A DNA stretch of 64,000 nucleotides from Agrobacterium fabrum str. C58 (GTDB lineage Bacteria; Pseudomonadota; Alphaproteobacteria; Rhizobiales; Rhizobiaceae). Below the pieces are notes generated by a model. That model did not search any database and had not been told where the DNA came from. It saw only the letters and a program-made list of their open reading frames with translations. The translations under genes and the position numbers were made by a program. The DNA is taken from NCBI RefSeq assembly GCF_000092025.1, contig NC_003063.2:620001-684000 (forward strand), in the 5' to 3' direction. Shown piece after piece: positions 391 to 12,346 of this stretch (position 1 is its first letter; each line of letters begins with the position of its first letter).

Positions 391-882
391 TCATGGAGCC
401 AGCTTTTCCGACAGGCCACGCCCGCCTGCGTAAGGTTTTGCCTCACGCTGGATCAGGAAGACGGACTTTTCCACCGGTAGCGGCTCGAGCGTCCGATAAC
501 GCTGAAACCGCCTGGAATATTCAAACCGGATGAGCCTGTCGTCGAACTTCCCCGCCAGAACGCGATAGCCGTTGACGAATTCATTCAGGATTTCCAGTTC
601 TTCTCCCCACACCCAGCCGCCGTAAGACGTCCCTTCATTCGACCGCAGCACGATCTCGAAAAAATGCCCGCCTGCCACCAGCGGCATGCGAAAGAGAATA
701 TCGAGATTATCCTCGTCTTCCTCGTCGCCTTTTTCCACCGATAGTCTGGCATGGGCGACCTTCGCATGAACAAGCGCCGAAACCGGATAAAAAGGCCGGC
801 CCTTGAACCACATGAATTCACTGACCGCATAACCGACATCGTCGGCACGCTGATAAGGTTCGGTACGCGGCTCAAACGCCAT
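391..882 (-). CDS. Conserved-looking hypothetical protein, 163 aa
   Basis: I do not recognise this protein. It is a soluble, acidic-then-basic polypeptide without signal peptide or membrane segment. An acidic stretch (EKGDEEDEDN) lies near residue 55, and an aromatic, tryptophan-rich segment (GGWVWGEELE) near residue 95 is followed by a basic C-terminal third. Start: an ATG preceded by GGAAG was preferred to a GTG eight codons upstream, which also has a weak GGGAA. It is transcribed divergently from the regulator to its right, with about 200 bp between them, so a shared promoter region is possible. Nothing ties it to the neighbouring YcaO cluster beyond proximity. Confidence 0.7.
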   Translation of the reverse strand: MAFEPRTEPYQRADDVGYAVSEFMWFKGRPFYPVSALVHAKVAHARLSVEKGDEEDEDNLDILFRMPLVAGGHFFEIVLRSNEGTSYGGWVWGEELEILNEFVNGYRVLAGKFDDRLIRFEYSRRFQRYRTLEPLPVEKSVFLIQREAKPYAGGRGLSEKLAP

Positions 883-1078
883 GTAGCTTCCGTTAAACGC
901 GATCACTGTCGAAAATTCCCGATGCCTGCCCGCCGCATATCCGCTGTTTTCCGCCCGTCATTCATTCTTCTGTTTCCGACAATAGACAGGCCGCGTCACA
1001 CCAACGTCAAATGGAACGCTATGATGACTTTCAATTTCCCGAGCACATTGTTAGATGATGTTTCATGAGGGGACGAAC

Positions 1079-3007
1079 GTGGCTGGGAACGCTGAACTGA
1101 TACCGATCCGGCTATTTGGCACCCCGCGCTGTGAAGCGGTGCGGGACGCATTTTTTCCGTCCAAGGGCTTTGCCCTCACCGCTGCCCTCATCCTTGCGCC
1201 GAACCAGTCGCTTTCCCGCCAGTACGCCGCATCGCTGCTGTGGGAAAATGTCGAGCAGAAACGGGCGCTTGGCAATTTGCGGCAGCTCATCCTGCGCCTG
1301 CAGAAACTTCCCAGTGAGGATGATGCCATCCTTCTGACCGAAGGGAACGATCTAAAGGCAGGAGCACTGGCGCAGCGCACCGATCTTGCCATCTTCCTGG
1401 CTGGCGCAAGAGCCGAAGACCCGATGCGGCGGCTCAATGCCCTGCTCGAATTCGGCGGTGATCTGCTGGAGGGGCTGGAGGCCGGACAGGATCATCTCTA
1501 CCTGTGGCTGCTTTCGGAACGCCGCCGCCTCAAGGACCTGTTCTTTTCGAGCTACACCCAGCTTCTGGAAGAATTGACGCGGTTTGGGCGTGCGAGTTCC
1601 AACGACATCGCCAGACTGGCCGAATGCGCCTGCAAGATCGAACCGGAGCGTGAGGAAACTTACCGCGCCGCCATGGCAGCCTATGCACGCGTGGGCAACA
1701 TCAGCGCCTGCGAAGGCATGTATCAGCTTTTGATGGAACAGCTTCGCCAGGAGGACCGCTCGCCTGAAGCGGAAACCGTGGCTCTGAAACGGCGGATACA
1801 GAGCCTCGCCGCGACGATAGCGGGCCCGGTGGAGCCGGAAGAGGGCAGCCGCCGACAAGTACTGGCAAAACCGCGTGTCGCATTCGTTCGCCCGGCCCGG
1901 GTCGACGGGCAGCCGGTCCCAACGGTCATACATGCCTTTGTCGAGGATGTTGCCAACAGCCTCGTCCGATACCGCACCTTCACCGTGCTTTCGCCGCACA
2001 GCACCTTTGCGCTGGCCCATGACCGGGTAGACGACAGTTACGCCATGCTGCGGGCGGATTACCGCATCATCTCCACGGTCTTCGACGACAGCCGCATGTC
2101 CGTTGCGCTGATCGAGGATGCGAGCGGCGAAATCGTCTGGTCGCTGGAGGCGGTGCTGACAGAGCGGCATATCCACGCCGCCTTCCGGCTGCTCTCCAAA
2201 CAGGTGGCGGCAGCACTTGCCCGCGAAATCGAGCGGCTGCAGGTGGAGCCCGACCGTAACCACAGCGGCGAAGCCTACCGGCAATTGCTGGAGGGGCAGC
2301 AGCTTCTGCGCGGCAAATGCGACCTGCCGCTTCTAAGGAGAGCACGCTCCCTGTTCCGCAAGGCGGTCGATCTCGACCACAGCCTGGCGGTCGCCCGCGC
2401 CCGGGTGGCGCAGAGCCTGCAGCTGGAATGGCTGATGCTGGGGGGCAATGACCCCCACCTGCTGCATCGCGCCAAGGCGGAGGCCGATGCCTCCGTCGAG
2501 ATCGATCCGGCACTTGGCGTCGGGCACTGGATGTGCGCCGTCGTGGCGCTTTACCAGCGGGATTTCGACATATCCGCCGAAAAATTCTTCGAGGCGGAGG
2601 CGCTGGCGCCCAACTCCGCCGATCTTCTCCTGCAGCACGCCGATGCGCTCGCCCATTTTGGCGATGCGGAAATTGCCTGGGACAAGTTTCAGCAGGCCAT
2701 CAACCTCAATCCGCTGGCCCCGGACATCTATTGGTGGGCCGGTGCCAGCATCGCCTTCAAACGTCAGGATTACGGCACGGCGGTGGAACTGTGCGGGCGG
2801 ATGGAAAATGACGAACCGGCGCTGCGCGTTCTGACCGCAAGCCACGCCCTGCATGGCGATTTGCTCGCCGCCCGCGAAAGCGGCAGCAGGCTTCAGGAAA
2901 ACTATCCGGGTATGACGGCAAGGGAGATCAGCAGCCTGTCTCCGGACCGAGACCCGATAGCGAATGAACGATTCTATCACGCACTTCGATTAGCCGGGAT
3001 CAAATAG
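1079..3007 (+). CDS. SARP/BTAD-type regulator with TolB-like and TPR regions
   Basis: Probable transcriptional regulator of about 640 aa. The N-terminal 100 residues resemble the winged-helix half of SARP/AfsR proteins (IRLFGTPR, then LLWENVEQKRALGNLRQLILRL). Residues about 105-250 match a bacterial transcriptional activator domain, with helices rich in Leu and Arg. The middle (about 270-400) resembles the TolB-like/CadC C-terminal type sensor region, and the rest is helical TPR-like repeats up to residue 640. No membrane segment is visible. Start: GTG with GAGGGG six bases upstream was chosen; two ATGs eight and seven codons earlier lack a ribosome-binding site. It ends 8 bp before the next gene and is the first gene of the YcaO-TfuA run, so it is inferred to control that cluster or to act with it. 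Confidence 0.75.
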   Translation: MAGNAELIPIRLFGTPRCEAVRDAFFPSKGFALTAALILAPNQSLSRQYAASLLWENVEQKRALGNLRQLILRLQKLPSEDDAILLTEGNDLKAGALAQRTDLAIFLAGARAEDPMRRLNALLEFGGDLLEGLEAGQDHLYLWLLSERRRLKDLFFSSYTQLLEELTRFGRASSNDIARLAECACKIEPEREETYRAAMAAYARVGNISACEGMYQLLMEQLRQEDRSPEAETVALKRRIQSLAATIAGPVEPEEGSRRQVLAKPRVAFVRPARVDGQPVPTVIHAFVEDVANSLVRYRTFTVLSPHSTFALAHDRVDDSYAMLRADYRIISTVFDDSRMSVALIEDASGEIVWSLEAVLTERHIHAAFRLLSKQVAAALAREIERLQVEPDRNHSGEAYRQLLEGQQLLRGKCDLPLLRRARSLFRKAVDLDHSLAVARARVAQSLQLEWLMLGGNDPHLLHRAKAEADASVEIDPALGVGHWMCAVVALYQRDFDISAEKFFEAEALAPNSADLLLQHADALAHFGDAEIAWDKFQQAINLNPLAPDIYWWAGASIAFKRQDYGTAVELCGRMENDEPALRVLTASHALHGDLLAARESGSRLQENYPGMTAREISSLSPDRDPIANERFYHALRLAGIK

Positions 3008-3015
3008 GAGATATT

Positions 3016-3444
3016 ATGTCCTCGCATTTCTTCATTGTCGGAAAAAAGGGTTTTGGCGTTCTTTTCATTCGCACGGCGCCGCTTCGGGTTGCGTCCGTAT
3101 CGCATGAAACGATTGCCGCTTATGAAGCCAGCCATCCAGGCGTGGACGGTTACGCCCGCGTGGCTGCCGCCGCAAAGTCTATGCTCGTTCGCCAGGACGG
3201 CGAGCCGGAAACGGAACTGGATCAGGTGCAGATTCAGGGCATCGAAGCCCTCGTCGCCGGCGGCGCCGTGGTTTCCGAAGCCGATTTCGCCTTCATCGGC
3301 GAAGTGGTCGATGCCGGCTGGGACTTCAACCGCATGGTGCAGGCACCGATCGAAGCGGCTCTGAAGGCTGTCGGCCCGGCGGGTTCCGTCACCGGCGAAC
3401 TATTCGACGCCATCCTTGCCGACGACAGCAACACGGCGCGCTGA
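3016..3444 (+). CDS. Unknown 142-aa protein in YcaO-TfuA cluster, candidate substrate or adaptor
   Basis: I recognise no family. The gene has a strong AGGAGA site six bases before its ATG and starts only 8 bp after the regulator stops. The protein starts MSSHFFIVGKKGFGV, is alanine- and valine-rich and mostly predicted helical, and has no signal peptide, no membrane segment and no cysteine. The lack of Cys means it could not be a thiazole-type substrate, though backbone thioamidation or arginine modification would remain possible. It contains several Arg residues and a Gly-rich GPAGS near residue 120. Its position directly before YcaO and TfuA makes it a candidate modified protein, leader-binding adaptor or helper; the role is inference. 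Confidence 0.7.
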   Translation: MSSHFFIVGKKGFGVLFIRTAPLRVASVSHETIAAYEASHPGVDGYARVAAAAKSMLVRQDGEPETELDQVQIQGIEALVAGGAVVSEADFAFIGEVVDAGWDFNRMVQAPIEAALKAVGPAGSVTGELFDAILADDSNTAR

Positions 3445-3481
3445 TGACGGCCCTCTTGTCTTGACCGGCGCCAATGCTCCA

Positions 3482-4678
3482 ATGTCAGCGACCACGGCAT
3501 CAGGGCAAGCAGACGCCTCATTTTTCGATCCCGGACTGCTTCGGCGGTTCGGGATTACACGCGTCGGCGATGTGACCGGCCTCGATATTATCGGTATCCC
3601 GGTCTGGTTCGCGGCCCGGCCCAATTCGCGCGGTCTCTCCGTCTCGCAGGGCAAGGGGCTTTTTGCCGACCAGGCCCGGCTATCGGCGATCATGGAAGCG
3701 ATCGAAGGCGCGGTTGCCGAAGAAACCCGCAGGCATGTCACCGCTTTCGGCTCCATCGAGGAGATGCGGAACAAAGGCGTTCCGCTCATTCCCTTCGAAA
3801 CCGTTGGCCGGATCGATCCGGACGCTCTCGATCTGCGCAAGGAACGCGCCTGGGTGAAGGGAACCTCCATTCGCCAACAACAGGAGGTCTTTGCCCCTTA
3901 CGAACTCATCGGCATGGACTTCCGTGCGGAGTTCCCATGGGACCGGCAGGCCTTCCGCATGAGCTCGCAAGGGCTCGCTGCCGGGTTCGAGCAGGATCAT
4001 GCGGTTCTCCATGCCCTGCTCGAACTCATTGAAAACGACGCCAGCTTTCTCGTCGATACGTTCGAAACGCGCGCCATAACGCCGCAACCGTTTCTCCTTT
4101 CGGCAGGAATGGACTCGCTCCTCGATGATCTCATTCAACATCTTTCGAATATCGGCCTGCCGCCCTCCTTCTTCGATCTGACAAATGCGCTTGGCGTGCC
4201 GGTGGTGATGGCGAGCCTGCCCCGCTCGCTTCAGGCTGAGGACGGTCCGGCCACCCGCAGCGCCGCGGGTGCGGCCTGCCGCCCGAACACCCACGCCGCC
4301 GCCATGGCCGCGCTGCTGGAGGCGATCCAGTCGCGGCTGACCGATATCAGCGGCGCTAGGGACGACCTCTCCCCGCTGCGCTATCAACGCGACCTGTCAA
4401 CATCGGGCCCCACGGCCTCCCGTGCGCAGCCGTTGCGGCAGATGCCAGCCGATCTCAATTTTCCAGAAAGCGATCTATCTCTGCCGCCATGGCGCCAGCT
4501 GGCGGAGCACCTTTTCGCCCGCGGTATCGAGGATATCCATGTCTTTCCGCTGGAAACGGAGGTCTCTGGCCTGCATGTTGTCAGGATTCTGGCCAGCGGC
4601 CTCGCCCCGGCCGGCGGCGGCCTGCAACACATCTCGCCACGCACGCTCGATCACCTTTTAAATCTTGGAGGTACCTGA
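3482..4678 (+). CDS. YcaO-fold ATP-dependent cyclodehydratase/thioamidase
   Basis: YcaO proteins use ATP to activate peptide amide bonds for azoline, amidine or thioamide formation. This 398-aa protein shows the expected ATP-site layout: LSAIMEAIEGAVAEE around residues 68-81, AVLHALLELIEND about 100 residues later, and AAMAALLEAIQSRL with the Q-S-R typical of the family near residue 280. The proline-rich C-terminus seen in many azoline-forming YcaO proteins is absent; it ends LNLGGT. The next gene encodes TfuA, and YcaO-TfuA pairs are associated with thioamidation. The start is uncertain: an ATG was chosen, but an in-frame TTG 66 bases upstream would overlap the previous gene by 29 bp, and neither has a convincing ribosome site. 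Confidence 0.9.
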   Translation: MSATTASGQADASFFDPGLLRRFGITRVGDVTGLDIIGIPVWFAARPNSRGLSVSQGKGLFADQARLSAIMEAIEGAVAEETRRHVTAFGSIEEMRNKGVPLIPFETVGRIDPDALDLRKERAWVKGTSIRQQQEVFAPYELIGMDFRAEFPWDRQAFRMSSQGLAAGFEQDHAVLHALLELIENDASFLVDTFETRAITPQPFLLSAGMDSLLDDLIQHLSNIGLPPSFFDLTNALGVPVVMASLPRSLQAEDGPATRSAAGAACRPNTHAAAMAALLEAIQSRLTDISGARDDLSPLRYQRDLSTSGPTASRAQPLRQMPADLNFPESDLSLPPWRQLAEHLFARGIEDIHVFPLETEVSGLHVVRILASGLAPAGGGLQHISPRTLDHLLNLGGT

Positions 4679-5391
4679 TGCAGCCGGTGGTTTTTGCAGG
4701 ACCGTCCATCCACGGCATTGCAGATGAACATCTCTCCGGCCTCGATCGTCGCGGACCGGCGGCCTGCGGTGATATTTTCGATGCGGTGCGGCAAGGTGCG
4801 CGGACGATCGGGCTGATCGACGGTCTCTACGGCGATTGCGCCGCCGTATGGCACAAGGAAATCCTGTTTGCATTGTCGAGCGGTATCGCGGTTTTCGGCG
4901 CCGCCAGCATGGGGGCGCTGAGGGCGGCGGAATGTGAAGCCTTCGGCATGATCGGCATAGGCGATATCTTCGAAGCCTATCGCGACAGCCACCGTGTTTC
5001 CGATGCTGACGTGGCGGTGAGCCACGCGCCCGGCGAACTCGGCTATCGCCCGCTGACGATCGCTTTGGTCGATGCCGAGGCCACGCTCGCCGCCTGCGGT
5101 GATGCCATCACCCCCGAAGAATACGACGCGCTCGCCTCTGCCGCGCGCACCCTGCATTTTACCCGCAGGACCTGGCGCGCCGTCGCCGCTGAAGCGGGTC
5201 TCGGCCCCCCAACGGCAAATCTGCTCGCCGCCAACGCGGTATCCACCAAACGAAACGATGCAGCCAGACTTCTGGCGGCGCTCAAGGGGGAGCCGTTGCC
5301 ATCCCCGGTGCCGCAATCGTGGAAACTGCAGAACACCCTGTTTTTCCAGCAATTGGCTGCACGGCGGGTAGCGGGAGAAGAAGCGTCTTGA
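4678..5391 (+). CDS. tfuA: TfuA-like protein
   Basis: TfuA proteins are partners of certain YcaO enzymes, first known from the trifolitoxin cluster and later linked to peptide thioamidation, where they are thought to help deliver sulfur or substrate. This 237-aa protein has the family core: VFAGPSIHG at the N-terminus, IGLIDGLYGDCAAVWHKEIL near residue 45, and GAASMGALRAAEC near residue 75, followed by YRPLTIALVDAEATL. The ATG overlaps the YcaO stop (TGATG) and has GGAGG seven bases upstream, so the two are translationally coupled and probably made in similar amounts. Family assignment is confident; the substrate is unknown. Confidence 0.92.
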   Translation: MQPVVFAGPSIHGIADEHLSGLDRRGPAACGDIFDAVRQGARTIGLIDGLYGDCAAVWHKEILFALSSGIAVFGAASMGALRAAECEAFGMIGIGDIFEAYRDSHRVSDADVAVSHAPGELGYRPLTIALVDAEATLAACGDAITPEEYDALASAARTLHFTRRTWRAVAAEAGLGPPTANLLAANAVSTKRNDAARLLAALKGEPLPSPVPQSWKLQNTLFFQQLAARRVAGEEAS

Positions 5392-6539
5392 CCATCGCCG
5401 GTTCCCCGCCACTGGTGCCCGATTGCGGCGGTTTGATCCGCACGGTCGCGCTGGCATTGCCGGCCGCTTTTTTTGCTAGAAGCGGGGTAGAGGACACCGT
5501 TTCGCCGCTCGTCCCAATCGGTAACCTGCTCTCGGCCCTGCCTTCTGATATCATTGCCATTCTTGTGATCGATAGCGCCTCTCTTGCCTCGGCACGAAAC
5601 TGGCTCTCCAGCCTGCCAATCCGCTGCATCTCCGAACTTGTGCCCCTCTCTGGAAACGACAACGTCATCCCGCATCCGTGGATACAGGACATGTTCCATG
5701 TGCGGGCAAGCGATCGCGGACGGGGAACTGCACCGGAACTTGTCCTGGCGGCGGAAAATGGGGTCGGCCCCGGTCTGGCCGAGCATCTCGGAGCGGCAGT
5801 CACGCATTCGGATGTAACCCTGGCTGGCGGCAACCAGCTTATTGGCGCGGATTTTCGGCTGGTGGGCCATTCCAGCCTTGTTGAAAACAGCGGGATCGGA
5901 AGGACGACGGCCGTCTCCGCATATCGGCGACGGAAAATTGAGGCTCTCGACGGCAGAAGCGTGCACAGTTTCGGATATCGGCCGCAAGACCTCGGCAATG
6001 TCCCTTTCGATCTTCTGGCGATACCGGTCGACCCCGCAGCACTCGAGGGAAAGATGCACCAGTGCGGTTTCCACGTTGATCAGTTCGTTTCCGTTACCGG
6101 TCTCGAATACGGTGGCCGTCCGCTCCTGCTCGTCGCCGATCCTGTCGCGCATGGTGGATGTAATGTCCGTGTTGCAACCGAGCTGAAACGAAAACTGGAC
6201 GCCTCGGCCCTCTCGCTTGCACGGCAGGGTTTTGCGATTGAACGCAACCCCATTCCGGTTGCGCCTGCTATCGATACCAATAAATGCCTGCCCAGACTTT
6301 ACAACAATGTCGTTCTTGAAAATGTCACACGTTCCGGTCAGAAACGGCCATTCGTCTGGATTCCGCATTTCTGCGATACTGAAACGCTTGAGGAGTTCGA
6401 TACGGTGAACCGGAAAATCTGGGACGGGCTGGGCTTTCAGCCTATTGGCGTAGCCGGATGGAGCCACCTTTCAAGCCGCAACGGCGCGTTGCGCTGTGCA
6501 ATAAAGATCGTCGATCGCGATTCAGACACAAGATTATGA
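5388..6539 (+). CDS. Guanidino-modifying superfamily protein (deiminase/amidinotransferase-like)
   Basis: The 383-aa protein looks like a pentein-fold enzyme of the agmatine deiminase, arginine deiminase, peptidylarginine deiminase and amidinotransferase superfamily. Visible landmarks are HPWIQDMF with Asp101, TLAGGNQ at 145-150, FHVD with His229 and Asp231, and NGALRC with Cys370 as the likely nucleophile near the C-terminus. These correspond to the Asp, His-x-Asp and Cys of that superfamily. Start: TTG overlapping the tfuA stop as TTGA, with GGGAG eight bases upstream; there is no ATG in a better place. Overlap with tfuA places it in the same operon, suggesting that arginine residues of the cluster substrate, or a small guanidino compound, are processed. 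The exact reaction cannot be read from sequence. Confidence 0.75.
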   Translation: MTIAGSPPLVPDCGGLIRTVALALPAAFFARSGVEDTVSPLVPIGNLLSALPSDIIAILVIDSASLASARNWLSSLPIRCISELVPLSGNDNVIPHPWIQDMFHVRASDRGRGTAPELVLAAENGVGPGLAEHLGAAVTHSDVTLAGGNQLIGADFRLVGHSSLVENSGIGRTTAVSAYRRRKIEALDGRSVHSFGYRPQDLGNVPFDLLAIPVDPAALEGKMHQCGFHVDQFVSVTGLEYGGRPLLLVADPVAHGGCNVRVATELKRKLDASALSLARQGFAIERNPIPVAPAIDTNKCLPRLYNNVVLENVTRSGQKRPFVWIPHFCDTETLEEFDTVNRKIWDGLGFQPIGVAGWSHLSSRNGALRCAIKIVDRDSDTRL

Positions 6540-6665
6540 ATGGAAAACCCTGGCGCTTTGTCAATAAAGGTTCACAATACCCGTGGAAATTGTATTGAAT
6601 GTATACCTTCAACAATATTAATTGACGATCATCGAATTTAATAACCTCAACAGGAGGATTTTGTA

Positions 6666-7103
6666 ATGCAAGCCAAACTACCCAGCCCGATCGATGTCCA
6701 TGTGGGCACGCAGATCAGAATGCGCCGCAAATCGCTTGGCATGAGCCAGAGTGCGCTGGCCGGGCGATTGGGCATCACTTTCCAGCAGGTCCAGAAGTAT
6801 GAAAAGGGCGCCAACCGCGTCGGCGCGTCCCGTCTGCAGGCCATTGCGTCGATCCTCGGTGTCGAGGTCAGCTCCCTGTTCGCCAATGCCACGCCCGATG
6901 GCGGAGCCGCCAACCCGGCGCTTGGCACGATCAATGCCATGCAGACCTTCGTGGCCTCGAATGAAGGGTTTTCGCTCAATCAGGCCTTTTCGCGCATCAA
7001 GAGTGTGGCCGTGCGCAGAAGCATCGTTGCCCTCGTGACATCGCTCGCCGCAAGCGAAACGGCTGAAAATGCCGGCACGCCGACGGACAAAAGCGACGAT
7101 TGA
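6666..7103 (+). CDS. XRE-family transcriptional regulator
   Basis: A 145-aa DNA-binding protein with a Cro/C1-type helix-turn-helix in residues about 14-70: [20 protein letters not shown] then [19 protein letters not shown]. The C-terminal 70 residues are Ala- and Ser-rich and not recognised. This architecture is common among rhizobial stand-alone XRE regulators. The ATG is preceded by AGGAGG at a good distance, after an AT-rich 126-bp gap that probably carries its own promoter, so it is likely transcribed separately from the YcaO run. Targets are unknown. Confidence 0.88.
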
Positions 7104-7197
7104 CGCAGGTGTGACGCTCGCGTGACGCTCGATGTGGTCGAAAATGAATAACGCGGGATCAACGCGTTTTCATACTGTCGACTGTCGAGAGGGAACC

Positions 7198-7431
7198 ATG
7201 GTGGCGTCTACCACAGCAGTAGTTGAAGAGGACAATGCGGACGAGATTCTGGCGCTCGGGCGGATGGTTTCCTATCTCTGCCAGCGCTCCAAATCTCTGG
7301 AACTGGGCATGTCGACCTATTTTCTGGAAATGGCATTGTTATCGCTGGCCCAGGACATCAATCAGCACGGTTTGCCACAGGCCGGCGCAGAGATGAACGG
7401 CAGCGGTTTCGCACACGCCGAACTACATTAA
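7198..7431 (+). CDS. Small hypothetical protein, 77 aa
   Basis: Unrecognised small acidic protein (MVASTTAVVEEDNADEILAL...), probably all-helical and soluble, with the central segment SKSLELGMSTYFLEMALLSLAQDIN. The ATG with AGAGGG seven bases upstream was chosen over an ATG 22 codons earlier that lacks a ribosome site. It lies 94 bp after the XRE gene in the same direction and is followed by a stem-loop, so it is likely the last gene of that unit. Confidence 0.65.
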   Translation: MVASTTAVVEEDNADEILALGRMVSYLCQRSKSLELGMSTYFLEMALLSLAQDINQHGLPQAGAEMNGSGFAHAELH

Positions 7432-7571: not shown

Positions 7572-7597
7572 CGAGGCCCGGTTTTTACCGGGCCTCG
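7572..7597 (+). terminator. Strong hairpin in the 77-aa gene/xylG gap
   Basis: Perfect 10-bp stem (CGAGGCCCGG / CCGGGCCTCG) with a TTTTTA loop followed on the plus strand by ATTTATAT. It lies between the convergent 77-aa gene and xylG, 37 bases past the xylG stop as transcribed, so it could end transcripts from either side or end a short RNA starting after the TATAAT-like sequence near 7535. Confidence 0.6.
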
Positions 7598-7633
7598 ATT
7601 TATATCGGAAGTAAAGACTGCCAAATCCCGTCA

Positions 7634-8416
7634 TCAGGAGACGACCGCGCCCGGACCCGCCACCGCGCCTGCCGGTACCTTGCCCAGAATGATCATACCG
7701 AGAACCTCGTCTTTGGTGACATCTTCGGTTCGCGCATGACCGACCACCTTGCCGTTTTTCATGACGAACACCCGGTCGGCAAGATCGAAGACGTCATGGA
7801 TATCGTGGCTGATGAGGAAGATGCCGATGCCCTGCCGTTTCAGTTCCTTGACGAGATCCCCCACCTGCGCCGTTTCCTGCGGCCCGAGCGCTGCCGTCGG
7901 CTCATCCATGATGAGGATACGGGCGTCGAACAGAATAGCGCGGGCAATGGCGACCGACTGGCGCTGACCGCCTGAGAGCGCCTTCACCGGCTCCTTGAAT
8001 CGCCGGAAATTGGGGTTGAGGCGTCCCATCACCTCGCGAGCCGAGGCTTCCATGGCGACATCGTCAAGCGTGCCCCATTTCGTCTTCAGCTCGCGGCCGA
8101 GATAAAGATTGGCCGCCGCATCGACATTATCGGCCACCGCCAGCGTCTGGTAGATGGTTTCGATGCCGTATTTCTTGGCGTCGCGGGGATTGCGGATATC
8201 CGCATCCTCGCCATTGATGAGGATTTCGCCCCCATCGCGCCTATATGCGCCGGACAATATCTTGATGAGCGTCGATTTGCCCGCGCCGTTATGGCCGAGA
8301 AGGGCTACCACCTCGCCGGGGAAAAGATCGACTGAGGCGTTTTCCACCGCATGGATACCGCCGAAGGAAATGGAAATATTGCGCATTTCCACGAGGGGCG
8401 TGACTTGGTCCGTCAT
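7634..8416 (-). CDS. xylG: Xylose-type ABC transporter ATP-binding protein
   Basis: ATPase of a carbohydrate uptake (CUT2) transporter. Walker A GHNGAGKS (residues 41-48), Q-loop region ETIYQTLAV, signature [14 protein letters not shown], Walker [12 protein letters not shown] and the switch His in ISHDIHD are all present. At 260 aa it carries one nucleotide-binding domain, whereas classical XylG/RbsA/AraG proteins have two fused domains of about 500 aa; single-domain versions such as FrcA are known in rhizobia. ATG preceded by GAGGAGAA. It is the third gene of xylF-xylH-xylG and ends the operon. The sugar is judged xylose from the binding protein; fructose/ribose-type transport is the alternative. 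Confidence 0.88.
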
Positions 8417-8434
8417 TGGAGTTCTCCTCGGTTC

Positions 8435-9748
8435 TTACTTGGCGCGGGCGCGGTAGATGGTGTCGAGCCAGACGGCGACGACCAGGACCACACCGACGAC
8501 GATGCGCTGGAAGGGCGTATCGATGCCCACCAGCACCATGCCGGATTGCAGCGATTGCATGACGAGCGCGCCGAGCATCGCGCCCGCTATGGTGCCGACG
8601 CCGCCGGCAAGCGAGGTGCCGCCGATGACCGCGGCCGCGATCGTATAAAGTTCGTCGAGTTCACCCTGGGCATTGGTGGCAGCGTTGAGGCGGGCAGTGG
8701 AAATTGCCGCGGCGATGGCGCACAGAACGCCCATCAGCGTGAATATCTTCACCGTGACCCAGCGGGTCTTGATGCCGGCCAGTTCCGCCGCTTCCGGGTT
8801 GCCGCCGATGGCGAAAACATAACGTCCGAAGCGCAGCCTCGTCGCGATGAAGGTCATGACGGCACCGACTGCGAGCGCCATCAGCACAGGAATGGCAATG
8901 CCGTGCGGAATGAACAGGCCGCCATCCGGCCAGGCTATGCCATTGGCATCGGCATAGTTGCGGGCAATGTTGATCGGCCAGGGATAGCTGTTGACGACAG
9001 CCACGAAACCGACGACGACGAAGCAGCCAAGCGCCACCAGGAAATATTCCGCCCAGACGGGCCGCAGCGGAAAGCCGAAACGGCGGCGCTGGTGACGGGA
9101 ATTGAGGATCGCCGCGACAATAGCGACGCAGGCGACGATCGCTGCGATCCAGCTCCATGTCGCGCCGATCGAGCCGCTGGTGCCGCCGCCCATCAGGCGG
9201 AAGGTGGAATCCATCGGTGCCACGGTGCGGCCGCTGGTGACGAACCAGGTGCCGCCGCGCCAGACGAGCAGGCCACCAAGTGTTACGATGAAGGACGGCA
9301 CGTTGAGGAAGGCGATGATCGAGCCCTGCAGCATGCCGATTGCGCCGCCGACGAGAATACCGACCAGAAGCGTGACGATCCATGTCGCCCAATGTTCGAA
9401 GCCGAGGATTTGCGGCAGGATTTCCGCCTGCATGACACCCATGATCATGCCGGAAAAGCCGAGGATCGACCCGACCGACAGATCGATGTTGCGGGTAACG
9501 ATAACAAGCACCATGCCCGTCGCCATCACCGCGACCGAAGCGGTCTGGACGGAGAGGTTCCAGAGGTTTCTCGGCGTCAGGAACAGTCCACCCGAAAGAA
9601 TATGGAAACCGATCCAGATCAGAAGAAGCGCGCCGACCATGCCAAGCAGCCGCGTATCGAGCTCCGTGGCACTGATGAAACGCGAAATCGAGCCGGTCTT
9701 TTCCGTCTTGGGGGACGTCGTGGAATTGGATTGTGTCATGTCGGCCAT
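8435..9748 (-). CDS. xylH: Xylose-type ABC transporter permease
   Basis: Inner-membrane permease of 437 aa with about ten or more hydrophobic segments. It shows family motifs such as TRNIDLSVGSILGF near the first third and IGGNPEAAELAGIKT with INTARLNAATNAQG-like AISTARLNAATN further on. The length fits XylH (larger than the roughly 330-aa RbsC type) because of an extra central region (residues about 210-300). Start: the ATG giving MADMTQSN was chosen, with AAGGAGG eleven bases upstream; the frame is open another 21 codons. It lies between xylF and xylG, with 80 bp and 18 bp gaps, in one transcription unit. Confidence 0.9.
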   Translation of the reverse strand: MADMTQSNSTTSPKTEKTGSISRFISATELDTRLLGMVGALLLIWIGFHILSGGLFLTPRNLWNLSVQTASVAVMATGMVLVIVTRNIDLSVGSILGFSGMIMGVMQAEILPQILGFEHWATWIVTLLVGILVGGAIGMLQGSIIAFLNVPSFIVTLGGLLVWRGGTWFVTSGRTVAPMDSTFRLMGGGTSGSIGATWSWIAAIVACVAIVAAILNSRHQRRRFGFPLRPVWAEYFLVALGCFVVVGFVAVVNSYPWPINIARNYADANGIAWPDGGLFIPHGIAIPVLMALAVGAVMTFIATRLRFGRYVFAIGGNPEAAELAGIKTRWVTVKIFTLMGVLCAIAAAISTARLNAATNAQGELDELYTIAAAVIGGTSLAGGVGTIAGAMLGALVMQSLQSGMVLVGIDTPFQRIVVGVVLVVAVWLDTIYRARAK

Positions 9749-9828
9749 GGACTGCCGGTCCTCCTTACATCTGAAAGGCGCCGCGCCACCTGTTCGTGAC
9801 GCGGCGCCCAAACATCAACCTAACGGTC

Positions 9829-10869
9829 TCAGTTGCAGGCCTTGACTGATCCGGCCTTCACACCCTGGCAGGCCGTTTCCTTCTTGATCCAGCCGGCGTC
9901 GATGACAGTGCCGAGATTGTCCTTGGTGATGGCGATCGGCTTGAGGAAGACCGACTGCATCGTGACCTTCTTCGGCCCGCCATCAAAGGCGGTGACGCCC
10001 TTGATCTCGGTCATCTTCTTGCCGCCGGCCAATGCAAGCGCGATGCCGGCCGCTTCCTTGCCGAGTTCGCGGCTGTCCTTCCAGACGGATACCGTCTGCG
10101 TGCCGAGCGCAACGCGATTGAGCGCGGCGAAGTCAGCGTCCTGACCGGAGACCGGAACCGAACCCGCCATGCCCTGCGCGGCGAGAGCGGCGATTGCACC
10201 ACCGGCCGTGCCATCGTTCGAGGCGACGACCGCATCGACCTTGTTGTTGTTCTTGGTCAGGAACTGCTCCATGTTCTTCTGGGCATTTTCCGGCTTCCAG
10301 CCATCGGTATAGGCTTCGCCGACATTCTTGATCTTGCCCGACGACATGGCGGCCTTCAGCACTTCCTGCTGGCCGGCAAAAAGAAAGTCCGCATTCGGAT
10401 CGGAAGACGAACCCTTGATGAAGACGTAATTGCCTTCCGGCTTGACCTTGAAGACTTCGGCGGCCTGCAGGCGACCGACTTCCTTGTTGTCGAAGGTGAT
10501 GTAGAAGGCGTTCTTGTTTTCGATCAGGCGGTCATAACCGACAACCGGAATACCCTCGGCAACGGCCTTTTCAACGGCCGGGCCAATCGCATCGCTGTCC
10601 TGCGCCAGGATGATCAGCGCGTTGGCGCCCTGGGAAATCAGTGATTCCACGTCGGTCAGCTGCTTTGCGGCGGACGACTGCGCATCGGCAGAAATATACT
10701 TCGCACCGGCCTTGTCGAGCGCTGCCTTGATGGCCGCCTCATCCGTCTTCCAGCGTTCTTCCTGGAAATTTGACCAGGAAACGCCAACGACGAGATCAGC
10801 CGCGATGGCAGCGGTGTGCAGGGAAACGAGTACAGCCGTACCCGCCAAAAGCTTGGCAAATGAATTCAT
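9829..10869 (-). CDS. xylF: D-xylose-type periplasmic binding protein
   Basis: Periplasmic substrate-binding protein of 346 aa with a cleavable signal peptide (cleavage after about AAIAA, residue 23). The mature protein follows XylF closely: the [20 protein letters not shown] start, [57 protein letters not shown] and [24 protein letters not shown]. These match E. coli XylF better than ribose- or fructose-binding proteins. GGGAGG precedes the ATG. It is promoter-proximal in the operon and divergent from a ROK regulator, with an operator-like palindrome between the two. Confidence 0.92.
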
Positions 10870-10952
10870 GATGTCCTCCCGGTAGGGGCGAAGCCCCGCA
10901 CCTCCATGCAGGGAAAACGCCCGGAAAAAGCTGTCGGTCTCTGTGGTTTCAC

Positions 10953-10977
10953 AATTTTCTCGACAGTCGAGAAAATT
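10953..10977. promoter_or_regulatory. Perfect operator palindrome between xylF and the ROK regulator
   Basis: Two perfect 12-base arms (AATTTTCTCGAC and its complement GTCGAGAAAATT) flank a single central A. The site sits 83 bp upstream of the xylF start and 124 bp upstream of the ROK start. Long, AT-ended palindromes with a short centre are typical of ROK repressor operators. It is inferred to be the binding site for the adjacent regulator, controlling both directions. Confidence 0.8.
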
Positions 10978-11101
10978 AATGTCAGAGATTCCTCATGCTG
11001 TCAACAACGGCTGCGGGCAGCATCCGGGTGCCTTGATCTTGCTCGTGGCATGCGCCATCAGAGGGGATAAGCACGACAGGAAAAAAGGCCGTTCAGGGAG
11101 C

Positions 11102-12346
11102 ATGCCCCAGCCCATGTCCGCCATTGCAAGCACGGAACTGGTGCGCCAGAAAAACAGCCTGTCGGTGATGGCAGCATTGCGCCTTTATGGCAGCCTGTCC
11201 CACACGGACATGTCGTCCTTCACCGGTCTCGCCTCTGCCACCGTCTCCGTCATCACCACCGATCTGGAACGGACTGGCCTCATCCTGCGTAAGGAACAGA
11301 TCGCCGCTGCCGGCCGCGGACGGCCGCGCATCCTCTTTGCACCTAACGGCGCCTTCTGCCACGTCGCGATCATCATCATCTCGTCCGACAGCGTGCAATA
11401 TTCACTGGTCGATTATGCCGGCAAGCTGGTGGACCGTTTCACCGAGCAGAGGATTACGGCTGAAAAAGGCTCGTTCGGCGGCTCGATCCTCTCAGGCCTC
11501 GCAAGGCTTGCAGACCGCTCGCGTATCGACCGGCACGATATTCTTCAGGTGTCGATCAGCAGCAAGGGGCTTGTGGACGCGGCAGCGGCGGTGCTCGTCT
11601 GGTCTCCGGTGCTCGGCACCGAAAAGATAGATTTCCAGCAATTGATTTCGCAGGGCGGTCGCATCCGCGTGACGCTGAACAACGAAACGCTGCTGGCCGC
11701 AAAAGCCATCTGGATGCGAGAGCAGGCAAAAGACGGCCCAAAACCGGAAGCCCTCGTCACCCTGTCGCTCGGCCACAGCATCGGTCTCGGCATTGCCCGC
11801 TCCGGAGCCGGCACAATCGAGGTCAGCGCCCCCAATTTCGGCCATATGCTGCACCTCGCCGATGGCGCTTTGTGCCGTTGCGGCACCAGAGGCTGTATCG
11901 AGGCCTATTCGGGCTTCTACGCCATCCTACGCTCGGCTTTTGAAGCACCGCCGCAGGCGGAGCCGGCAAAATTCGTACCTGTCGCAGAGGTGGACAAGAT
12001 CGCCGCTTCAGCCCGCGCCGGCGCGCGCATGGCCCGCTTCGCCTTCCGCACCGCCGGCCTTGCGCTCGGCAACGGCCTTTCGCGCCTGTTCAGCCTGCAT
12101 GGCCATATGCCGGTCTTCATCACCGGACCCGGCACACGTTATTTCGATCTTCTGGAAAGCGGCCTGCGCGACGGGCTTGCCCAATCGCAGGCCGTCCGTT
12201 TCGGCGGCATGCCCAAAATCACCATCGCCGCCAATGAGCCGGAACTGGTGTTCGAGGGCCATATGGAACACGCGCTTTCCGCCGCTGATGACTATATTCT
12301 GAGCGCCGAGGGCGCTCAGAAGCCCGTGCGGAATTCGGGAGCCTGA
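11102..12346 (+). CDS. xylR: ROK-family transcriptional regulator, probable xylose repressor
   Basis: A 414-aa NagC/XylR-type protein. Residues about 20-70 form a MarR-like winged helix (AALRLYGSLSHTDMSSFTGLASATVSVITTDLERTGLI). The rest is a ROK domain with the zinc motif LCRCGTRGCIEAYSG near residue 262. Start: ATG with GGGAG just upstream was chosen; the frame is open upstream through the operator palindrome, which argues against the longer version. The divergent layout with xylFHG and the palindrome between them point to local repression relieved by xylose. The symbol is by function and position, since the B. subtilis and E. coli XylR proteins are of different families. Confidence 0.87.
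   Translation: MPQPMSAIASTELVRQKNSLSVMAALRLYGSLSHTDMSSFTGLASATVSVITTDLERTGLILRKEQIAAAGRGRPRILFAPNGAFCHVAIIIISSDSVQYSLVDYAGKLVDRFTEQRITAEKGSFGGSILSGLARLADRSRIDRHDILQVSISSKGLVDAAAAVLVWSPVLGTEKIDFQQLISQGGRIRVTLNNETLLAAKAIWMREQAKDGPKPEALVTLSLGHSIGLGIARSGAGTIEVSAPNFGHMLHLADGALCRCGTRGCIEAYSGFYAILRSAFEAPPQAEPAKFVPVAEVDKIAASARAGARMARFAFRTAGLALGNGLSRLFSLHGHMPVFITGPGTRYFDLLESGLRDGLAQSQAVRFGGMPKITIAANEPELVFEGHMEHALSAADDYILSAEGAQKPVRNSGA

Follow-up and report, generated by a model that had tools for sequence, protein, structure and literature searches.

Gene organisation of the cluster

The window analysed here is a stretch of 64,000 nucleotides of Agrobacterium fabrum str. C58. Near its beginning, five co-directional genes on the plus strand extend from 1055 (or 1079, depending on the start of the first gene) to 6539. 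All five frames were found open where an earlier note on this DNA had put them. The features of the cluster and its surroundings are as follows:

391-906 (-): protein of 171 aa, family not assigned; possible accessory gene, kept in 14/20 deiminase loci
1055-3007 (+): SARP-type regulator, 650 aa, BTAD and TPR-like C-terminal part; PF03704 E 6.9e-21; alternative start GTG 1079
3016-3444 (+): predicted RiPP precursor, 142 aa, one core unit; lies in the precursor slot, with relatives carrying 2-5 tandem core units
3280-3378 (+): segment A89-P121, counterpart of the unit repeated in multi-core relatives (repeats of P0140 and P0146-P0148)
3319-3333 (+): core motif W102-D-F-N-R106, with deimination predicted at R106 and the thioamide placed, by analogy, preferably at N105-R106
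3482-4678 (+): YcaO; PF02624 E 9e-51; start ATG 3482 or TTG 3461
4678-5391 (+): TfuA, 237 aa; PF07812 E 4.5e-40
5388-6539 (+): predicted peptidyl-arginine deiminase, 383 aa; D101, H229, D231, N306/N307, C370
6666-7103 (+): XRE-type regulator accompanying the module; HTH_3 E 2.3e-13
7132-7431 (+): protein of 99 aa, family not assigned; possible accessory gene, kept in the same 14/20 deiminase loci; alternative start ATG 7198

The tight packing described in the earlier note was also confirmed when the junctions were re-read from the letters. Firstly, a gap of 8 bp separates the SARP gene (stop 3005-3007) from the 142-aa gene (ATG 3016). Secondly, YcaO and TfuA overlap in TGATG (TGA 4676-4678, ATG 4678), and TfuA and the deiminase-like gene in TTGA (TTG 5388, TGA 5389-5391). 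The junction between the 142-aa gene and YcaO is less certain because of the two possible YcaO starts, TTG 3461 or ATG 3482.

The ycaO and tfuA genes are thus adjacent, which is the first hallmark of a YcaO-TfuA RiPP cluster, and the identification of this pair stands, as both members are clear by Pfam. The second hallmark, a gene for a leader-core precursor close by, can be recognised at the sequence level from the position of the 142-aa gene and its core repeats. In the case of the regulator, the BTAD match assigns it by sequence to the SARP type; its TPR hits were below the cut-off, and Pfam gave no match to an OmpR-type DNA-binding domain at E up to 1.

The 142-aa protein as a predicted precursor

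No Pfam family was found for the 142-aa protein at E up to 1, and its single NCBIfam match (E 0.093) was far below the cut-off. The earlier note had seen no obvious precursor in the cluster and had suggested that the product may be a modified protein. Neither view held up: the 142-aa gene occupies the precursor slot between SARP and YcaO, its core is multiplied in relatives, and these repeat-core relatives point to a RiPP precursor.

The GWDxNR unit is present in five copies in P0146 (301 aa), in four copies each in P0147 and P0148 (both 264 aa) and in two copies in P0140 (180 aa). The first three sequences were found by a profile search with a wider alignment and P0140 earlier, and all four retain the N-terminal part of the 142-aa family. 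Each unit contains GWDxNR and a proline five residues past the Arg. The repeat period is 37 residues, except that in three of the four proteins the first copy is followed by a spacing of 47. The Arg is present in 15/15 repeat copies; the anchor used for this count did not presuppose R. Likewise, R106 and P111 are invariant in 90/90 single-copy sequences covering the site (P0143, in which the site is not covered, is left out of this count); position 102 is W in 85 and position 105 is N in 64 of them. Altogether, the precursor slot and the tandem GWDxNR units with their invariant Arg argue for a RiPP cluster with a modular precursor and not for a machine acting on housekeeping proteins.

Closer to the view of the earlier note, the 142-aa protein could be a folded partner or recognition protein, the true substrate being a cellular protein. 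Its 142 residues, conserved end to end within Agrobacterium, would suit such a role, as would the best NCBIfam matches of YcaO and TfuA, which are the McrA thioamidation pair (below cut-off). The tandem core copies in relatives, two 142-aa-family genes in tandem in one genome (G147) and a slot shared with repeat-core peptides all speak against it, and we consider this explanation very unlikely.

Several observations concern relatives of the precursor. The four-copy precursor P0148 and the deiminase homologue P0064 both carry the name Rhizobium sp. CSW-27 and an equal longest contig (323,865 bases), which suggests a multi-copy precursor beside a deiminase in this strain. The four-copy P0147 and the single-copy P0174 likewise share a longest contig of 6,885 bases and are possibly two precursors of one cluster. 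In P0108 and P0109, two relatives of 149 aa, the core is intact and the C-terminal sequence differs, as if the reading frame had shifted downstream of the core.

YcaO, TfuA and the related loci

By sequence, the closest solved chains are MJ1094 (6pe3, E 5.2e-18) for YcaO and a TfuA chain (6xp8, E 5.7e-29) for TfuA. A YcaO family search found one YcaO in the genome of the window. TfuA is present in 97 of 327 Rhizobiaceae genomes, by our own count at 122 places, all of which were examined (119, two further ones and the window). A YcaO tree was built for 125 loci, namely the 119 survey loci plus the 11 loci retrieved with the deiminase, minus five without YcaO. In this tree, obtained by a quick method and without bootstrap, one branch (support 100) separates 73 of the 125 loci from the rest, and among these 73 another branch (support 100) sets the 14 deiminase loci apart.

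The other 59 loci are related to the cluster and have no deiminase. In 49 of them, a leader profile of about 70 residues identified the slot between SARP and YcaO as holding a leader-core precursor, and in one more (L110) such a precursor could be recognised by eye. Seven others (L109, L112, L115, L121, L125, L129 and L130) have a different peptide of 42-65 residues in the slot, ending in KFR or RFR in 7/7 cases; this family in SARP-type YcaO-TfuA loci is not matched by the leader profile. The remaining two (L036, L090) were left unsorted. The profile found 55 genes in the 49 loci. By coordinates, 54 of these lie between SARP and YcaO, and the 55th (L102) is overlapped solely by the longest YcaO frame. 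Repeated cores were detected in 8/49 leader-type loci: four FSGKL units in L034, three GGYMD units in L066, L075 and L091, three GLHE units in L088, and RAFSFDGRSD-type units in L030, L099 and L105. Because of these repeats, the slot genes of the leader-type loci are regarded as probable RiPP precursors. A bridge to the 142-aa family is found at L155, where the slot protein of a deiminase cluster matches the small-leader profile (E 6e-7). Direct homology of the 142-aa family with the small precursors is modestly supported at the sequence level.

Regarding the core Arg, the leader end could be placed in 49 of the small precursors, and 8 of these 49 cores contain Arg, although in L055 it falls within the end of the leader. 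The other six of the 55 small precursors could not be parsed, and all six carry Arg near the end. Counted by locus, 43 have a single precursor, and Arg is present in four of these (L055, L056, L108, L111); of the six two-precursor loci, five have it. A core Arg is thus rare where there is one small precursor and fixed in those deiminase loci that have a 142-aa type precursor, but the two-precursor loci have Arg-rich cores and no deiminase. As a separate observation, L030, L093, L096, L099 and L105 each carry a tandem pair of precursors; in three of these loci, one member of the pair has Arg-rich repeats of the RAFSFDGRSD type. Neither a deiminase nor an XRE homologue was found at these five loci within the stretch examined.

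The deiminase-like enzyme

The 383-aa protein encoded at the end of the cluster gave no Pfam or NCBIfam match at E up to 1, and thus did not reach the cut-off of either PAD_porph (PF04371) or PAD (PF03068). Among 32 aligned relatives, PF04371 matched two (best E 0.0084) and PF03068 one (E 0.18). Its best match is an Agrobacterium fabrum protein with 97% identity. The predicted structure shows the pentein fold of the GME superfamily (deiminase branch), and the top fold matches are hydrolases: AgDI, PPAD and PAD4. The predicted fold is similar to agmatine deiminases and Porphyromonas PPAD (PDB 6nib, 1xkn, 6i0x) at a sequence identity of 13-17%.

A complete D..HxD..NN..C set (Asp, His-x-Asp, Asn, Cys) is invariant in 32/32 aligned relatives. 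H229, D231, N307 and C370 align with an agmatine deiminase and D101 falls outside this alignment; these five we take to be the catalytic residues. Together, the predicted fold and active-site residues fit the guanidino-modifying enzyme that the earlier note had predicted. Unlike agmatine deiminases and PPAD, the protein has Arg in place of His before the catalytic Cys (31/32 aligned sequences). The His is kept in a full-length homologue at 7590-9095 (-) of L153, in a genome without a TfuA match; this enzyme may resemble an ancestral stand-alone form.

Between the two reactions that had been considered, deimination is favoured over amidino transfer by the hydrolase folds and the full D..HxD..NN..C set. 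A RiPP cluster in which the enzyme is no peptidyl deiminase, and instead performs amidino transfer or acts on a free guanidine compound that becomes attached to the peptide, would run against this evidence; moreover, the invariant Arg of the precursor would be the natural substrate of a deiminase. We therefore regard such a cluster as unlikely, and peptidyl-arginine deimination as the preferred reading.

Linkage of the deiminase to the module

A search of 327 Rhizobiaceae genomes with a deiminase profile matched seven, six at full length and one (G287) with a weak fragment. The 142-aa profile matches the same six genomes, and in all six TfuA lies between YcaO and the deiminase. Since TfuA is found in 97 of these genomes and a full-length deiminase in six, the enzyme marks a minority of the Rhizobiaceae TfuA loci. 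Two wider samples were searched, the genome of the window left out of both. Among 297 genomes of the order, G580 and G351 have full-length homologues in the same kind of cluster, G503 has a full-length homologue alone in a genome without TfuA, and the other matches are one cut by a contig end (G366) and one weak fragment. The 289 genomes of the class contributed two complete clusters, in G664 and G888, besides two weak fragments.

If the association were accidental, deiminase homologues should mostly sit far from YcaO and TfuA. This was not so: a full-length homologue is present in 11 of the sampled genomes, that of the window among them, and in 10 of these the gene directly follows TfuA. The order SARP, 142-aa gene, YcaO, TfuA, deiminase was conserved in 11/11 loci retrieved with the window's deiminase, and is thus not a matter of chance. 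The same five-gene order was seen in G066, G097, G113, G147, G580, G664 and G888. G147 has three TfuA loci, and a deiminase cluster of this genome (L027) contains two tandem genes of the 142-aa family at 8243-9440 (-).

The sequence does not fix that both enzymes act on one molecule. YcaO-TfuA and the deiminase could thus modify different precursor copies or states, with no product carrying both changes. The overlapping genes and close linkage argue against this separation, and it is the explanation to which we give the least credence; both changes on one precursor are preferred.

Regulators and neighbouring genes

A SARP homologue is present in the 11 loci retrieved with the deiminase and in L027, L028, L139, L154, L155 and L157-L160. 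The XRE gene (6666-7103), overlooked in the earlier note, has homologues in 12/14 deiminase loci, in 52/59 related loci and in 0/52 other YcaO-TfuA loci; in 44 of those 52 related loci the SARP gene is the one nearest to it. An XRE homologue also lies next to 4/5 TfuA genes without YcaO. In these loci (L035, L052, L058, L060) TfuA adjoins the XRE regulator, with no YcaO gene within the stretch examined.

The 171-aa and 99-aa neighbours were found in deiminase loci only, in 14 of the 20 compared, one of which (L160) repeats another (L009). Two of the 14 loci keeping the 171-aa protein belong to other genera (52-56% identity). Among the window genes up to 16000, the XRE, 171-aa and 99-aa genes are the only flanking genes kept in other genera, and no protease or exporter was found among the genes kept with the cluster there. 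Further downstream, at 7634-12346, lie genes assigned by eye to the ATPase, permease and binding protein of a sugar-type ABC transporter and to a ROK-like regulator. Where they are present in deiminase loci of the Agrobacterium type, these genes are 86-99% conserved; outside that group of deiminase loci, the ABC ATPase alone has matches, which are generic at about 30%.

Proposed product and mechanism

We consider it fairly probable that this is a RiPP cluster in which the 142-aa protein is the precursor, YcaO-TfuA introduces a thioamide and the PAD-like enzyme converts R106 to citrulline. What was computed comprises the cluster, the slot, the core repeats, the invariant Arg, the active-site residues, the predicted fold and the linkage.

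Both reactions, their sites and order, as well as regulation and release, we infer as follows. The N-terminal part of the 142-aa protein would serve as leader and the segment around GWDFNR as core. YcaO and TfuA would thioamidate the core backbone, with the residue preceding R106 as the most likely site, and the PAD-like enzyme would convert the invariant R106 to citrulline; the placement on residues 105 and 106 follows the analogy with thiovarsolins and the std product. Expression would be controlled by the SARP and XRE proteins. Release would probably depend on housekeeping proteases, as neither a protease nor an exporter was found among the genes kept in other genera.

More tentatively, the cluster could represent a new RiPP class of Alphaproteobacteria, having a W-x3-R core in 1-5 copies and a thioamide before an Arg that an in-cluster deiminase converts to citrulline. 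This wider proposal we hold to be quite possible rather than probable. If true, thioamidated RiPPs would gain a second modification, one that removes charge from the residue adjoining the thioamide, and the deiminase responsible would be a product of the cluster itself and not of a distant gene in the genome. In addition, a sizeable SARP/XRE-associated YcaO-TfuA family in Rhizobiaceae encodes precursors that can be read from the sequence, and some of these have repeated cores; the family is therefore open to direct testing by mass spectrometry.

Comparison with known systems

The combination of genes was unfamiliar to the earlier note, and no description of it was found in the literature searched either: among titles and beginnings of abstracts, with subscription literature mostly outside the scope, none described a deiminase in a YcaO-TfuA cluster. 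The sole match joining YcaO, TfuA and deiminase was the std paper (PMC13174530), which, in the part covered, states that none is encoded. Rhizobium and Agrobacterium TfuA cluster families are presented in PMC8120280. Our guess is that these likely include loci related to the window cluster, and some deiminase-related loci may be listed in the supplements; the words deiminase and SARP are absent from the main text as covered here.

Citrulassins (PMC12971885) resemble the predicted product in the peptidyl-arginine deimination of a RiPP. They differ in being lasso peptides whose PAD gene lies outside the cluster, and a thioamide is unmentioned in the text covered.

In the thiovarsolins (var cluster, Streptomyces varsoviensis; PMC6511847), according to the portion of the text covered, a thioamide joins Pro to Arg at the core end. 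As in the window, there are YcaO-TfuA, a repeated core in the precursor and no specific protease in the cluster. Unlike the window, the system is actinobacterial, and a deiminase is not mentioned in this portion; desaturation of the Arg is ascribed tentatively to a heme-oxygenase-like protein, and the amidinotransferase VarS was dispensable. No VarO-like heme oxygenase was found among the eight proteins scanned at 391-7431.

In the std cluster of Streptomyces thermodiastaticus (PMC13174530), the Lys is, in contrast to the window, carbamoylated by a NodU-like enzyme, and the part of the paper covered reports no peptidylarginine deiminase. There, YcaO-TfuA thioamidates an Asn directly before a basic residue, so that in the std product the thioamide joins Asn to the Lys that becomes homocitrulline, a ureido residue.
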